Part shown: positions 26,518 through 32,800 of the stretch, piece after piece
How positions within the stretch are numbered: the stretch's first letter is position 1
Layout: every line of letters begins with the position of its first letter
Assembly (NCBI GenBank): GCA_030446715.1
Contig: JAUJMU010000007.1
Coordinates: 186,001 to 250,000 of the forward strand
Direction of reading: 5' to 3'
From: Cytophagales bacterium
GTDB taxonomy: Bacteria; Bacteroidota; Bacteroidia; Cytophagales; 172606-1
DNA: 64,000 nucleotides
Position numbers and translations under genes: made by a program
The notes under the pieces: generated by a model
The model's input: the letters and a program-made list of their open reading frames with translations, nothing else
What the model was told of the DNA's origin: nothing
Databases searched by the model: none

Positions 26518-26567
26518 AAAGCCAAAAGGCTACGGTTCGTAACCGTAGCCTCAGGCAGAAAGTGTAT
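26518..26567. repeat. 50-bp repeat copy 1 (contains terminator hairpin)
   Basis: These 50 bases are repeated at 27881-27930 with a single difference (T at 26537, C at 27900). The repeat contains the hairpin AGGCTACGGTT / AACCGTAGCCT and the following CAGGCAGAAAGTGTAT. The other copy abuts the left end of the IS701-like element. Confidence 0.85.
26527..26551 (-). terminator. Terminator of the beta-barrel gene at 26578
   Basis: AGGCTACGGTT (26527-26537) pairs perfectly with AACCGTAGCCT (26541-26551) around a 3-base loop. On the minus strand the stem is followed by a T-rich tail. It sits 27 bases after the stop codon. Confidence 0.75.
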
Positions 26568-26577
26568 CAGAATGAAA

Positions 26578-27168
26578 CTAGAACTTGCCGGAGATACCAA
26601 TGGAGGCGGCACCATATGTACCACGGCCAAGCTCCAGGAAGGCGCCAAACTTCGGAGAGAAGAAATACCGGGTACCAAACACCAGTCCGGGAACAAATCC
26701 GCCGGCGCTGTAGCCTTCTTGTCTAAACCGGTCATCACCCCATGTAACTGTGTACATCTCATAACCCAGCAGCAGCGTTCCGTACAAATCCCACTTTTCT
26801 TCGGGAATGTTGACGTCCAGCAGTTTGTTGATCAGGGGTGTTCCGTGGTAAGTACCCCGGGCACCGAATGCAGTAACCGAAAACCGGTTTCTGTAGTTGT
26901 AGTTGGAGTATCTGTAGGAACGACCGTAATAACCGCCATAACCACCAATGGCAAAAACATCGGAAACGTTGTACTCTATGTTGGCCGTAACGGGTAAAAA
27001 TCCGGAGTAGTTGTCACCAAAGCCGTAGCCGCTGCCATAGGCACCACGTACACCAAGAGAAAGTCCCACACTGGCCGTTACATCGCCTTTGGCGTACTGA
27101 GCTTGTGCGGTGAAAGACAGGAGGCAGGCTACTGCCAGGGAACACAAAAGGGTAATCGTTGTTTTCAT
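26578..27168 (-). CDS. Outer-membrane beta-barrel protein (OmpW/OmpX-like size), paralogue A
   Basis: This 196-residue protein has a signal peptide (MKTTITLLCSLAVACLLSF, cleavage after AQAQ). The mature chain alternates aromatic and glycine residues in about eight strands (YGFGDNYSGFLPVTANIEYNV, VFAIGGYGGYYGRSYRY, KWDLYGTLLLGYEMY, FGTRYFFSPKFGAFLELG). It ends in phenylalanine (GISGKF), as outer-membrane proteins do for BAM recognition. A close paralogue at 32093-32674 is interrupted by a stop codon. The two share the promoter sequence. Confidence 0.82.
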   Translation of the reverse strand: MKTTITLLCSLAVACLLSFTAQAQYAKGDVTASVGLSLGVRGAYGSGYGFGDNYSGFLPVTANIEYNVSDVFAIGGYGGYYGRSYRYSNYNYRNRFSVTAFGARGTYHGTPLINKLLDVNIPEEKWDLYGTLLLGYEMYTVTWGDDRFRQEGYSAGGFVPGLVFGTRYFFSPKFGAFLELGRGTYGAASIGISGKF

Positions 27169-27250
27169 TTTAGCTAACGTTTTGTTTAGTTTTTGTAGAA
27201 ATTGATTTGGCTGAAAAGCTGAAATTCCACCGTCATCTTCCGGAGTGCTG

Positions 27251-27282
27251 CAAAGGTAATTTTATCACTCATTGATTGTTAA
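27251..27282 (-). promoter_or_regulatory. Bacteroidota promoter of beta-barrel gene A
   Basis: On the minus strand, a -7 element TACCTTTG (27258-27251) lies 21 bases downstream of a -33-like TTA (27282-27280). The same TACCTTTGCA followed by (G/T)CACTCCGG, with the same 21-base spacing, is found upstream of the second copy at 32769-32800. That conservation supports the call. Confidence 0.6.
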
Positions 27283-27880
27283 CCGGCACGTTGCAAATTT
27301 TGGGGCAGATGGTACAAATCAGCGTTTTTGACCGTTTTTAACTGTTTTCGGGAATTCCAGGCCAGGTTTTACCTGATGACTGCCGGCTAAATTAATTATT
27401 GTTAATACAATGGCTTGCTTTTAAAGCAACCGGGACGGATTTTTAACAGCATTTTTTCTTTGAATTGATTCATCAGACACCGCCACAAAGACTTTTTTAT
27501 AGGAATAAAGGGCGTTTTCTTCTACCAGCCGCCAAACTCACAGAAAGAAGAAAAAACCGAAAGCAAACGCCGGAAAGCAGTGAAACATCACATCCAGATG
27601 CTCACTTACGGGAAAACCGCTGCCTCCCCACCGGAAATGATGGAAATCCTATTTGACTATTTCAAACCCTGTGTGAACCAGATCACACCTGAAACGTTAA
27701 CTCTTTGAACTTTTTCAACGTCTGGCCGGCCCTCCTTGCTATACCTGTTTCAATCCCCCCTTACCAATAACGTACTGGCAAACTTCTGAAATCTGAGTTA
27801 TCTGATACCGGCACCAGTAACTCCCGTTACATTCCAGAAACCGGCAGGCATATTATTCCGGGACTTGATCAATTGGCTGT
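27283..27880. other. Non-coding stretch between beta-barrel gene A and the IS remnant
   Basis: No supported gene. One open frame around 27480-27707 (ending PETLTL) has no usable start codon and no recognised relative; a competing 63-codon frame is equally unsupported. No hairpin or direct repeat was seen apart from the 50-bp repeat that begins at 27881. Confidence 0.4.
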
Positions 27881-27930
27881 AAAGCCAAAAGGCTACGGTC
27901 CGTAACCGTAGCCTCAGGCAGAAAGTGTAT
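27881..27930. repeat. 50-bp repeat copy 2, abutting the IS element
   Basis: It differs from 26518-26567 at one of 50 bases. It keeps the terminator hairpin but has no gene ending next to it here. It ends three bases before the left inverted repeat of the IS701-like element, so it is probably a displaced 3' flank of a beta-barrel gene. Confidence 0.8.
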
Positions 27931-27933
27931 TAA

Positions 27934-28967
27934 CAGGACTTACGCAGGGGATAAAGATAAGAGGTTAAATTTGAGCAAAAACGATTGAGACGATGACAAT
28001 CGAGGAGTACATGAGTTATCTGTTAAGCAGTCCGGCAGGAAGCAGTTGCGTGAAGGCAGGCCAGGTTCTGGAAGTATCTCACGATGAGGTGAACCGCTTT
28101 TTGTTGCAGGGCAGTTACGGGGGCAGAGACCTTTATGAGAAAGCAGCAGTACATTTAGTGGCTGCCGGGGGCACATTAACGGTAGATGATTCAGTACTGG
28201 ATAAGCCTTATGCTCAGCCGGAGACAGAGTTGATCACCCATTTATATTCAGGCAAGCACCACCGGGTAGTGAAAGGAACCGGGCTGATTACCTTGTTGTA
28301 TACGGATATAAAAGGGGTAAGTCTGCCGGTAAACTTCCGGGTGTATGACAAATCCCGGGTAAAACCAGGAATGATTACTTTCAGGAAATGGTCAGGAAGT
28401 CCTGGAGTGGGGTCTTCGTCCCAAAGTAGTAACGGCAGACAGCTGGTATGCTTCCACAGCTAACTTCAAATTCTTGAGAAACCAGGAGTTGAGTTTTCTG
28501 TCTGGCATTGAGAAAAACCGCATTATCTCTACCCGTGCCGGAGAATATCAGCAGTGTGTACAGCCGGTATTCCTGCTGAAGGCCTGTACACACACCTCAA
28601 AGAGTTTGATTTCGTGAAAGTGTTTCAGACAGTTGACAAAGACAATAACGTGAGATACTACGTGTACTTTCATCCCGATGAGGAAAAACGGCAATTTATC
28701 ACCCGCGCTGAGTTTGAAAAAACCCATCAGCAGCACTGGCAGACCGAAGTCTTTCACCGCACCTCAAAGCAGGTATGCAACATTGAGAAATTCTTTGTCA
28801 GAACTTCTTCATCCATTAAAACGCACCTGTTTGGTGCCCTCAGAGCCTTTATCAGACTCCCAGCAATGGTAAGAGATCAGATACTCGATTCCTTCTACTC
28901 TTTACACCGACAACTCTTCTTGCAAGCTCAAAGAGAGTTCATCCTAAACTTTGCGTAACTCCTGTCA
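27934..28967 (+). mobile_element. Decayed IS701-family-like insertion sequence
   Basis: An element of about 1.03 kb is bounded by imperfect inverted repeats: ACAGGACTTACGCA at the left, and at the right, read on the minus strand, ACAGGAGTTACGCA (one mismatch over 14). It encloses a DDE transposase broken by three frameshifts. No convincing target-site duplication is visible at the edges. Confidence 0.75.
27993..28958 (+). pseudogene. IS701/IS4-group transposase with three frameshifts
   Basis: Frame 1 gives VSHDEVNRFLLQGSYGGRDLY, then the first catalytic aspartate in LTVDDSVLDKPYA and HRVVKGTGLITLLYTD. The chain then continues in other frames: GKTRNDYFQEM (shift near 28358), EVLEWGLRPKVVTADSWYAS with the second aspartate (shift near 28390), and IPAEGLYTHLKEF to QTEVFHRTSKQVCNIEKFFVRT with the catalytic glutamate (shift near 28553). 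All catalytic blocks survive, but the gene cannot make a full protein as written. It may still be mobilised in trans if another copy exists. Confidence 0.85.
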
Positions 28968-29226
28968 GATTACTCCCGTGTACTTCAGCAGCCCCTGGTG
29001 GTTTGTCTCAGTTTAGCTCACCAACCGGATCTGATCATACACCGGTAAGGGAATACTCAACGCCGGAGCGGTTTAACTCCTCAGGGGCTGGTAAGTACCC
29101 GGTAAATACCGGTAGCTGTAGCAGCCAACGGTATTGCCTCTGGAGTGCAGCGTTAAAGGCCGGCCGCCCCGGTAAGGGGCAATAAAGCAATTCACCGCGC
29201 ATTCCCGCCTTCGCTGCCTTTGACAT
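28968..29226. other. Non-coding stretch between the IS remnant and the MITE-like element
   Basis: I see no gene. Short open frames on both strands (about 60 codons) are proline- and arginine-rich artefacts. No strong hairpin was seen. Confidence 0.4.
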
Positions 29227-29457
29227 AGGTTGGAACTACCGGTTCGGGTCTGAAGTAAGATAGTCTGTCTTACAAAGCCGGATGTAGCCGGTAATCATGA
29301 GATGCAGTTATTTTTCGTCGTTCTAATCTATTTAAGATGAGTTTTTGAGACTAAGATTTTAATCTCATCCAATGGTCGTTTAGTTATACAACTCTTTGAA
29401 AATTAAGGCCCTGAATGCTCCTGTCTTACTTTAGGCCCTAATCGGTAGTTCCAACCT
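29227..29457. mobile_element. MITE-like element with 37-bp terminal inverted repeats
   Basis: The left end (29227-29263) opens AGGTTGGAACTACCGGTT and the right end (29421-29457), read on the minus strand, opens AGGTTGGAACTACCGATT. The two 37-base arms differ at 5 positions. The 157-base interior is AT-rich and has no open frame. The structure (about 231 bp, long terminal inverted repeats, no coding) is that of a miniature inverted-repeat transposable element. No clear target duplication was found. Confidence 0.65.
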
Positions 29458-29504
29458 TTGTTAGCGATAAAAATCGGTTTCTGGAGGGATTGGGGGAATT
29501 ACCG

Positions 29505-29547
29505 GTTGCAGGACCTCACCCTGAATCCCTCTCCTGATGAGAGGGGG
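29505..29547. repeat. CCTCACCC...CCCTCTCC intergenic repeat fragment
   Basis: ACCTCACCCTGAATCCCTCTCC followed by the inverted GAGAGGGGGAG resembles the larger block at 59560-59712. It may serve as a terminator for the minus-strand ORF at 29568. Confidence 0.4.
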
Positions 29548-29567
29548 AGCCAAGTAAGTCTTTTTTC

Positions 29568-29834
29568 TCACTCCCCAAGCGGCTTCAGATCCCTGCCGCT
29601 GAGCTGATGGGCCAGTTCCTCCCTGATTTTCCTCAGCCCGTGCACCTCCCATTCTTCCAGAGCCAGTGCCCCACCCAGCTTCTTCTCCAGCCGGCGGGTA
29701 TGCAGGCGGCTGATGCCCCCGTAGAGGCGGGCAGCCACTACGGGCAGGCTGATACAAGAAGCCAGAATCCATCTGAATTCATCTAAGTCCTGACCGGGCA
29801 GGAATATAAGGGAATTACCGTGGTCGATCTTCAT
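29568..29834 (-). CDS. Small hypothetical protein (88 aa), uncertain
   Basis: The frame encodes a largely helical peptide with LDEFRWILASCISLPVVAARLYGGISRL and a charged C-terminal helix (RKIREELAHQL). Amino-acid composition is plausible for a real protein, but I recognise no family and the start is unsupported. Confidence 0.35.
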   Translation of the reverse strand: MKIDHGNSLIFLPGQDLDEFRWILASCISLPVVAARLYGGISRLHTRRLEKKLGGALALEEWEVHGLRKIREELAHQLSGRDLKPLGE

Positions 29835-29977
29835 ATCCTTCGGGTTGTTGCTCTTTTCTCCTCCGGAGAGGGTCCATCCGGTAAAGATCTTTCCGGAGAG
29901 TCTTCTGTTTCTGCTGCCGGCTCACCCGCAACGCGGCCGGTAAGGGAATCTGACCGGGAGTTTCCGTGACTGTTTTC

Positions 29978-30751
29978 TCACCGGAAGTTTTTCTCTCCGG
30001 CCAGAGCCGGCTGGTGATCAGCTACCGGCTGGTGATCAGAACCGGACTTTTCTGATCTAATCTGCACGGATCTGGCCAGGGGACTGACCAGAATGGCTGA
30101 TGAGTGATAAAATGTATCATCCTCTGAGTGGATCAGGAAGGTGTGCTTTCCCGAGGGAATTCCCGTCAGATCAAAGGTGCGCATGTACCCGGGCCGCCTC
30201 GTGGTTTCTGAATAGATGATTCTGCCGTTGTCGGCCTTCAGGCACAGGTACAGCTTCCGGCAGCGGGGGTTCTCAATCAGCAGTTTGAGCTTGCCCGTAC
30301 TCCCCACCGCAAAGAGGCTTACGCCGATACCGGCATCCGGCTTTTCTCCTGCCGTTTCCGTGCCGGACCCGGTCTGGTGACCGGCCGGGGCGGGTAGCCT
30401 TTCCCGGGGGTCTGCCGGCAGGTCAGTGGCAGTAACCCTTGAGCGCAGAAGGCTCTGAGAGGTGATCTGGTCAAAAGCTTCATTGATTGCCGCTATATTA
30501 CGACCGGTAAGTTTCACGTACTGTCGGGTGAATACTTCCTCGTACAGCAGCCTTCCGTCTCCGTCGAAGAAGCGGATGGTGGTACTTGCTGAGGCAGCGT
30601 GAGTAAACAGTTTCCAGTACCCCCGCTGAGGCCGGGCCGGGTCCCGGTAAAAGGTGTCCTCCTGGGCAGTGGCACCGCTCGTAAAGCCGGTCCACAGAAG
30701 CAGCGACAGCAGCAAGGCAGAACAGGTCTTTTGGCAGAGTAACGCTCTCAT
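29978..30751 (-). CDS. Exported protein with two related beta domains
   Basis: This 257-residue protein has a signal peptide (to about GATAQ). The first domain (GYWKLFTHAASASTTIRFFDGDGRLLYEEVF) and the second (VSLFAVGSTGKLKLLIENP, GRIIYSETTRRPGYMRTFDL, GKHTFLI, ARSVQIR) share a pattern. A Pro/Gly/Glu-rich linker (about residues 110-140) joins them. The second domain is related to the whole mature protein at 16853-17293. The C-terminal tail repeats DHQPVADHQP. Function is unknown, presumably in the periplasm or at the cell surface. Confidence 0.7.
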   Translation of the reverse strand: MRALLCQKTCSALLLSLLLWTGFTSGATAQEDTFYRDPARPQRGYWKLFTHAASASTTIRFFDGDGRLLYEEVFTRQYVKLTGRNIAAINEAFDQITSQSLLRSRVTATDLPADPRERLPAPAGHQTGSGTETAGEKPDAGIGVSLFAVGSTGKLKLLIENPRCRKLYLCLKADNGRIIYSETTRRPGYMRTFDLTGIPSGKHTFLIHSEDDTFYHSSAILVSPLARSVQIRSEKSGSDHQPVADHQPALAGEKNFR

Positions 30752-31152
30752 AGAGGCTTAAAGAAGACAGTTGAAAAAATTCAGGACAAAACGCCCCCAT
30801 CAGAAAGGCAGAAAATTAAAATTGCCGCCTCACCGCATCCGATGCAATACCTGGAAACAGGTATATTATCATTGTTGCCTTGTGAGCAGCACACAGGTAA
30901 AACAGGGTTTCTGGCGTGGAAAAGAACTGCCATCAGGGCGGCAATGTCCCACAGCGGGGCCAGGGTGTTCAGGTGGGGCTTGGATCGGTAGTCATGGGCA
31001 TAATTAAGTTAAGAACGTAAGTAGTTGCACTTCAATAGGCAAAGCCTTTATCAAGCGAGCAAGCCGGCAATGATAAAGCAGAAGAATAAACTGGAATGCC
31101 AGCTTAAAAGTGGGCATACTTCCTCAGGAATGCATTGTAAAAATCGGCCAAC
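30752..31152. other. Intergenic region without recognisable gene
   Basis: Only short frames with unnatural composition (basic or cysteine-rich) are seen. No clear hairpin, repeat copy or perfect TAnnTTTG promoter was found. Confidence 0.4.
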
Positions 31153-31977
31153 TCAGATTTTCTTCAGAAACTGGTCGTCTATCAGCTGATTTTTGGTGAG
31201 GTATTGAGCGGGAGAACTGCCGGTAAAGTGGTAGAAGTCCTTGATCAGGTGAGCCTGGTCGTAGAAATTGTAGCGGGTGGTGAGATCCAGCCATGAAGCC
31301 TGCGGGTGAGCAAGGGCGTACTGCATCAGGGAACGAAAACGGACAATGCGGGCGTAGACTTTGGGAGCCAGACCTACCTGCTCGGTGAACCTGCGGTGCA
31401 GGGTCCGCTGGCTGATGCGTTCCTGCCGGGCAATGGTTTCAATGCCTGCTCCGCCCTGTGAGCGGAGAATGTGAAACAAGGCACTGTCTACCTCACCGGC
31501 TTTCGGAGAGGCCCGGCTGAACAGGCGGACCAGAAAGCGGTCAATGGTGTTAAGTTGCGCGTAAATATCCCTTTGTGCAGCCACTTGTTCACTGACCAGT
31601 TTCGACTCGGGATACCACGCGCTTAAACTTGTATACTGATCGGTGACTGCCCCGGCCTTTTCCCGCAGCAGGTGGTACATACCCGCTGGTTGGAGCACGG
31701 CAAAAAGCATATCCCAGCACCCGCTTGCTTCATTAAACCACACGCTGGTGGTCTGGCCGAAGAGGTAAATATCGGATTGGTCGTAAATAGCCTTTGCCAC
31801 CGGATGGACAACCCGGAATTCGTGCTCCTCTTCGGGGTTCAGCACAAAGACCAGCGTGCTCAGGCCCCGGGGAATGAAGGAAGTAGTAGCAGGCAGCGCT
31901 AAAGTGGATTTCAAGCGCAGATACTGGCGGACGTATCCGCTGAGCAGAGGAGAGGGCGCATAAGTCTGTAAAATCAT
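31153..31977 (-). CDS. AraC family transcriptional regulator
   Basis: This protein of about 274 residues has an N-terminal ligand-sensing beta domain (MILQTYAPSPLLSGYVRQYL) and a C-terminal double helix-turn-helix (GIETIARQERISQRTLHRRF, then WLDLTTRYNFYDQAHLIKDF ending FTGSSPAQYL). The start at 31977 fits the family's opening. The longer frame to 32163 would overlap the 3' end of the neighbouring beta-barrel pseudogene and adds no family sequence. The target is unknown. Confidence 0.9.
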   Translation of the reverse strand: MILQTYAPSPLLSGYVRQYLRLKSTLALPATTSFIPRGLSTLVFVLNPEEEHEFRVVHPVAKAIYDQSDIYLFGQTTSVWFNEASGCWDMLFAVLQPAGMYHLLREKAGAVTDQYTSLSAWYPESKLVSEQVAAQRDIYAQLNTIDRFLVRLFSRASPKAGEVDSALFHILRSQGGAGIETIARQERISQRTLHRRFTEQVGLAPKVYARIVRFRSLMQYALAHPQASWLDLTTRYNFYDQAHLIKDFYHFTGSSPAQYLTKNQLIDDQFLKKI

Positions 31978-32092
31978 GGCCTGAGGTTTAAAGTTAACCG
32001 CGTTAAGGAACTCTCTCCTTTTTGAGAAAATAATTCCCTCTAATCCCTTTACAAGAGCAAATTTCAATCGTAACTCCTGTATTAAAATGAAA

Positions 32093-32674
32093 CTAGAACT
32101 TGCCGGAAATTCCGATCGAAGCAGCACCGTATGTACCCCAGCCAAGCTCCAGAAATGCACCAAACCTGGGTGAGAAGAAATACCGGGCCCCTATTACCAG
32201 TCCCCCAACGAATCCTCCGTTGTTATACCCTGATAAATCAACCGTGGTGTTTTCCCATTTATAAGTGTATACCCTATAGCCTAGTAATAAGGTACCATAC
32301 AGGTCCCATTTTTCTTCGGGAACGCTGGCATCCAGTAGTTCATTGATTACAGGTGTTGCATGATACGTACCGCGTGCGCCAAATGAAGTGACTGAAAAGC
32401 GGTTACGGTAGCCTGCATCTTTATAACTACGGCCATAATATCCTGCATAACCCCCAATTGCGAAGGCATCATTGATGCTGTATTCTACATTAGCTGTAAG
32501 AGGTAAAAACCCGGAATAACTTCCCCCTAAATACCCATAGCCGCCATAACCGATCAGGCCCAGGGAGATACCGGCACTGGCGGTAATGTCGCCTTTGGCG
32601 TACTGGGCCTAGGCATTGAAGGAAAGCAGGCAGACCAACATCAGTGCGCTCAGAAAGGTAAGTGTCTTTTTCAT
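32093..32674 (-). pseudogene. Beta-barrel protein paralogue B, interrupted by an in-frame TAG in the signal peptide
   Basis: The frame from ATG at 32674 to TAG at 32093 encodes 193 residues closely matching paralogue A (AQYAKGDITASAGISLGL, YSGFLPLTANVEYSI, EEKWDLYGTLLLGYRVY, RYFFSPRFGAFLELG, ending AASIGISGKF). Codon 22 (32611-32609) is TAG where paralogue A has CAG in the signal-peptidase site ALAQAQ. No other lesion is present and the promoter is intact. It is either a very recent nonsense mutation, a base-calling error, or a suppressed stop. Confidence 0.85.
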
Positions 32675-32768
32675 GGTTGTAAGTGATTTTTGTTTAGGTT
32701 GTGTATAAATTGATTTGATTGGGTTGAAAAGCTGAACAAGGGTAATCCGGTGTTCGTCCGGAGTGATG

Positions 32769-32800
32769 CAAAGGTAGGTTCACAATCCGGTTTTGGGTAA
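32769..32800 (-). promoter_or_regulatory. Bacteroidota promoter of beta-barrel copy B
   Basis: On the minus strand, TACCTTTG (32776-32769) lies 21 bases downstream of TTA (32800-32798). Both element and spacing equal those of paralogue A, and the sequence around the start site (GCA.CACTCCGG) is also shared. Confidence 0.6.

Follow-up and report, generated by a model that had tools for sequence, protein, structure and literature searches.

The element in the window

The window analysed here is a stretch of DNA of 64 kb. An inverted-repeat search of the window identified two arms, at 29223-29263 and 29421-29461, that are 85% complementary over 41 bases, with 157 nt between them. BLAST of the ends gave 86.5% identity over 37 bases, which is the 32/37 inverted match of the ends that had been claimed in the original prediction. 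Under an independent-base model, ~4e-7 inverted pairs of this kind with a gap of at most 1 kb are expected in 64 kb. The inverted repeat is thus as first described, but the length of 37 bp assigned to its ends is not, as the outermost A/T pair is absent from the other copies, the ends of which begin GGTTG. The element in the window is therefore drawn at 29228-29456, with a length of 229 bp and 36-bp ends, and includes the following features.

29228..29263, plus strand: left 36-bp terminal inverted repeat, with 31/36 bases matching the right repeat and 30/36 matching both ends of the Tn3-family element on contig C7
29421..29456, minus strand: right 36-bp terminal inverted repeat, with 31/36 bases matching both ends of the C7 Tn3-family element and 34/36 matching the left end of the C17 copy
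29264..29420, no strand: 157-bp non-coding core, the reverse complement of which is homologous to the cores of the C17 and C7 copies (alignment against shuffles)
29310..29354, minus strand: best-conserved block of the core, TTAGTCTCAAAAACTCAT..., picked by eye from the alignment of the copies

No open reading frame of at least 80 aa was found within the element, in agreement with the claim that the 157 bases between the arms are non-coding. In its size (general range for MITEs, 50-500 bp), its terminal inverted repeats and its lack of a transposase gene, the element corresponds to a MITE in the general sense. The block at 29310-29354 is a candidate cis-acting site with a putative function, for example as part of a resolution site; no convincing similarity was detected between it and the res regions of relatives. 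An IS remnant had been noted nearby, and an IS-like repeat does lie at 27934-28965, ~260 bp from the element, although its match to a transposase is weak.

Related sequences in the same genome and elsewhere

The genome from which the window comes (6.43 Mb in 25 contigs, 98% complete) was found to include two further copies of the element, both 240 bp long, at C17:272210-272449 and C7:82504-82743. These copies are identical over all 240 bp but their flanks differ from the first outside base, and hence identical sequences occupy unrelated places that have nothing in common beyond the terminal repeats. The window copy is 68% identical to them. Local alignment of its core with theirs gave a score of 63.5 against a shuffle mean of 23.9, and none of 300 shuffles scored as high. 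As all three cores are homologous, the three copies descend from one miniature ancestor and not from separate deletions. The window copy is the most diverged of the three and probably an old relic, and the C17 and C7 copies, identical to each other, arose more recently. The genome thus holds three copies at unrelated sites, as expected of a MITE.

Searching the genome with the end pattern, as the original prediction had proposed, returned nine places with at most one mismatch, but no full-length intact element carrying such ends. Three pairs among the nine belong to the miniature copies, a further pair lies at C7:95349 and C7:111104, and a single end is at C2:69111. A shorter, 15-base form of the end with 2 mismatches gave 11 matches against 12 in a control and is uninformative alone.

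The C7:95349 and C7:111104 ends are identical (36/36) and bracket 15.8 kb, in which TnpA is encoded in three pieces in different frames. The main piece matches Pfam family DDE_Tnp_Tn3 (E 7.6e-108). A broken serine resolvase gene (PF00239) is also present, with its 3' end ~40 bases from the right end. The C2:69111 end is located 22 bases beyond a remnant of the C-terminal part of TnpA. All nine ends therefore belong to miniature copies or adjoin remnants of Tn3 tnpA or tnpR. The ends of the window element share 30-31 of 36 bases (83-86%) with the C7 pair, which is short of identity. The lack of a partner with these ends inside the window was borne out by BLAST of the ends, and one is present elsewhere in the genome. 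A related larger element thus exists as foreseen, but it belongs to the Tn3 family of transposons, with a tnpA and a serine resolvase gene, and is not an ordinary IS.

In a profile search, DDE_Tnp_Tn3 matches in this genome were confined to the C7 and C2 places. Both TnpA places are broken. The assembly yielded neither an intact parent nor an intact Tn3 transposase, and the family can therefore probably no longer move. Between the stop codon of the C7 tnpA and the left end are ~4.5 kb that contain other genes, and there is no end within 400 bases of that stop. This suggests that the unit was rearranged or took up other DNA, and the C7 end pair could accordingly bracket a rearranged or composite unit instead of one clean transposon. 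The C7 resolvase is 53-65% identical, over three pieces, to that of a Tn3 element in a relative (G006). It is closer to this resolvase than to that of the Fibrella transposon described below, and the C7 element therefore looks like a mosaic.

Among the matches listed from a plasmid collection, in a search of up to 5000 records, the closest intact relative was a transposon on a plasmid of Fibrella sp. ES10-3-2-2 (CP155472). Its tnpR and tnpA genes are divergent, its TnpA shows 52.5% identity to the main C7 transposase piece over 91% of that piece, and its ends, which start GGTTGCAA, agree with the C7 pair at 26-28 of 36 bases. This transposase match suggests that the genome studied here belongs to the Bacteroidota, near Fibrella. 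Unlike their counterparts in the genome studied here, the tnpA and tnpR frames are intact as annotated. The Fibrella ends are less similar to those of the window element (23-25/36), and the Fibrella resolvase has no significant match to the C7 resolvase.

The distribution of the element was examined in wider sets of genomes. The 240-bp copy was detected in its own genome alone in a search of 59 genomes (0/58 others), and, allowing one mismatch at most, the end pattern was likewise restricted to it in 291 genomes of the order (0/290 others). With 2 mismatches, the pattern was found in 19 of 395 genomes of the phylum including this one; each of the 18 others has one match and none has a pair, and these 18 single matches compare with 24 in a reversed control. 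Nine of the 18 loci were compared with the Fibrella tnpA and tnpR without a match, the tnpR query being a weak one that also misses the C7 resolvase. When genome contigs were scanned for the main TnpA piece, a single locus with 29% identity came up and was left out of account. The end was not found in plasmids using a 36-base query that is weak and also missed the related Fibrella ends in the same collection, nor in viral contigs (exact pattern) or phages.

Insertion sites, classification and alternative readings

Target duplications of 5 or 6 bp were not found at any of the three miniature copies, the 15.8-kb C7 element, or the Fibrella element as placed. Exact duplications of 4, 5, 6, 8 and 9 bp were sought at each element's own pair of ends with boundary shifts of 0-3 bases, without a match, and matches of 4-9 bp were sought in the 55 possible pairings among 11 ends, those of the Fibrella element being counted in. 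Across the ends of the genome itself there were near matches of 4/5 (left end of the C7 copy and left end of the 15.8-kb C7 element) and 5/6 (left end of the C17 copy and the same 15.8-kb left end), and no exact 5-bp match; one exact 6-bp match involved an end of the window element and an end of the Fibrella element. The two near matches and the 6-bp match with Fibrella are taken as chance. An inversion between the two identical copies was considered and rejected, as their flanks do not pair.

Four of the nine ends adjoin a recognised gene, and in all four cases just the 3' part of that gene remains. At C7:82744, the sequence is collinear (76%) with that of genome G002 of the same genus to within four bases of the element edge, a point that falls in an ABC permease gene. 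Ahead of this part of the permease, G002 has the permease start and a reading frame resembling a binding protein; the DNA missing on this side at C7 was not found in the genome studied here at the DNA level, in a search without a positive control. At the edge of the C17 copy, an anti-phage-associated DUF1156 methyltransferase gene (NF042963; L025 10342-12441) lacks profile positions 1-292 of 960, i.e. roughly its first third. The DUF1156 domain, which is N-terminal, was found nowhere in this genome above the cut-off (best E 0.5). The RND efflux gene at C7:95348 is reduced to profile positions 816-1020 of 1021, and at C7:111105 a DDE_3 transposase frame, of the IS630 type, is open from the element edge and has no start. 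The Pfam comparison covered the reading frames to the left of the C17 and C7 copies, without a match; neither the window ends nor the C2 end had a recognised neighbouring gene.

Replicative transposons acting within one molecule can give rise to adjacent deletions that start from a terminal repeat. Either deletion or recombination at the ends would account for the absent duplications as well as for the truncated genes. A literature search for adjacent deletions by Tn3-family transposons found nothing. It is unlikely that moves of this lineage are regularly coupled to deletion from the terminal repeat, with intramolecular replicative transposition as the main route; if this were true, the lineage would be a maker of chromosomal deletions that leaves no clean insert.

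MITEs that originate from a Tn3-family transposon and carry its ends have been termed TIMEs, as defined in PMC13367494 and PMC4133298. Given ends in common with the C7 Tn3-family transposon (30-31/36), the window element is very probably a TIME, that is, a non-autonomous miniature element derived from the Tn3 family. The three copies at unrelated sites, two of them identical, and the presence of such ends around a decayed larger transposon support the MITE-like reading that was originally put forward. From these sequences, the element is best read as having been moved in trans by the TnpA of such a Tn3-family transposon. An intact TnpA of the parent transposon would bind the 36-bp ends in trans, nick them and join them to a target. 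Replication would then give a cointegrate, to be resolved by a resolvase or by homologous recombination, and intramolecular transposition or recombination between copies would remove or swap flanking DNA. Replicative transposition with a cointegrate step is as outlined for the Tn3 family in PMC13367494.

Descent from an ordinary IS of a non-Tn3 family, the autonomous form of which has been lost from the strain, is very unlikely. The genome does lack an intact autonomous element with these ends, and the window ends are just 83-86% like those of the Tn3-type element, as this reading would allow. Against it, six of the nine end places are ends of miniature copies and the other three are at Tn3 tnpA/tnpR remnants, and the intact Tn3 transposon of Fibrella has related ends. 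The lack of target duplications and the truncation of genes at four ends would suit non-mobile relics, namely remnants of larger Tn3 elements formed by internal deletion, with recombination or segmental duplication as their sole means of spread. The flanks would have been copied too in a segmental duplication, whereas the identical 240-bp copies have none in common, and three homologous cores indicate one miniature ancestor instead of separate deletions; this origin is accordingly most unlikely.

The long inverted repeat would fold if transcribed, and the original prediction had named a structured RNA as the likelier reading should the element prove single-copy and conserved in position across genera. 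Instead, there are three copies at unrelated places in a single genome, and the 240-bp copy is absent from the 58 other genomes. No Rfam match up to E 1 was found in 28900-29900, and folding of the core by itself gave no more stability than that of shuffled sequences (z 0.86; 166/200 shuffles at least as stable). The structured RNA was rejected on these grounds, and this reading, or that of some other conserved signal in the chromosome, is barely credible.

The assignment to the TIMEs can be compared with the Pseudomonas TIMEs as they are described in PMC4133298. Those are mostly 262 bp long (229-240 bp here), and like the present copies they have no transposase gene, have ends in common with Tn3-family transposons and occur in few copies per genome. 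A few are flanked on both sides by the 3' parts of different genes. They are mostly without duplications, with direct repeats in 4/18, although TIMEs caught with trap plasmids had produced duplications of 5 or 6 bp, of which none were seen here. As just four of the 18 TIMEs in this 2014 survey have direct repeats, a duplication is not required for membership, and what is absent here is a footprint of transposition and no defining trait of a TIME. The end sequence, the core and the host differ from those of the Pseudomonas TIMEs, and the sole parent found here is broken.

In size, and in having two Tn3-type ends around a short core, the element resembles TIME244 (244 bp) and IS101 (209 bp), as reported in PMC13367494 and PMC4133298, and the length of its ends likewise agrees with the TIMEs published there. 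According to these papers, a res site is functional in IS101 and putative in TIME244, whereas none was recognised here; a resolution site in the core is a feature of some TIMEs and not of all. The cores of the copies gave no convincing alignment with the intergenic regions of the Fibrella, G006 and Thiothrix unzii elements or with the DNA upstream of the C7 tnpA and tnpR genes, the lowest numbers of shuffles reaching the observed score being 7/300, 30/300 and 71/300 in many comparisons, and they have no detectable similarity to the parent element. The TIME-COMPs described in PMC13367494 differ in carrying resistance genes, and none of that kind was seen here.

No open-licence literature on Tn3-family MITEs or TIMEs in Bacteroidetes or Cytophagales was found by title and the start of the abstract. 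The present element extends the TIMEs beyond the groups covered in PMC4133298 and PMC13367494 (mainly Pseudomonas and Enterobacteriaceae), and its Tn3-family parent, though decayed, can be traced; this is a modest, catalogue-level addition. Its ends also mark cuts in the chromosome: four genes break off at a terminal repeat or a few bases from one, and these include the genes for a transporter, an efflux pump and the anti-phage-associated methyltransferase.

Surrounding segment and other repeats

An empty site for the window copy, which had been suggested as a further check, was not obtained at base resolution, and no relative aligned across the element. In genome G001, from the same genus, the DNA to the left of ~27138 and that to the right of ~32095 are joined, and ~5 kb (27139-32094) that includes the element and the IS-like repeat is absent. 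The G001 junction corresponds to one copy of a gene that is held twice in the window (26578-27168 and ~32078-32776). This comparison dates the ~5-kb segment and says nothing on the element's own edges. The flanks of the C17 copy matched relatives only ~0.7 kb or more to its left.

The IS-like repeat at 27934-28965 is ~1.03 kb long and has a split reading frame with a DDE_Tnp_1 match (E 0.0035) that is under the Pfam cut-off. A 99% identical copy is located at C24:15429-16457 in the same genome (G000), and a 77% copy in G001. Another repeat, at 27602-27746, is ~73% like sequences at C13:29793, C13:157349, C7:51236 and C4:198336 and is also found in G002; it is perhaps a second miniature repeat family. 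A near-palindrome of 25 bases (AGGCTACGG..CCGTAGCCT) is present in two copies (26527-26551 and 27890-27914), which flank the open reading frame at 26578-27168 and the 27602 repeat. Just to the right of the element, a short repeat at 29476-29552 is 75-92% like ten other places in the genome, and some occurrences are in G002. On C17, a repeat of ~170 bp (L025 7600-7773) recurs, with an identity of up to 98%, in several parts of the genome and in G002.
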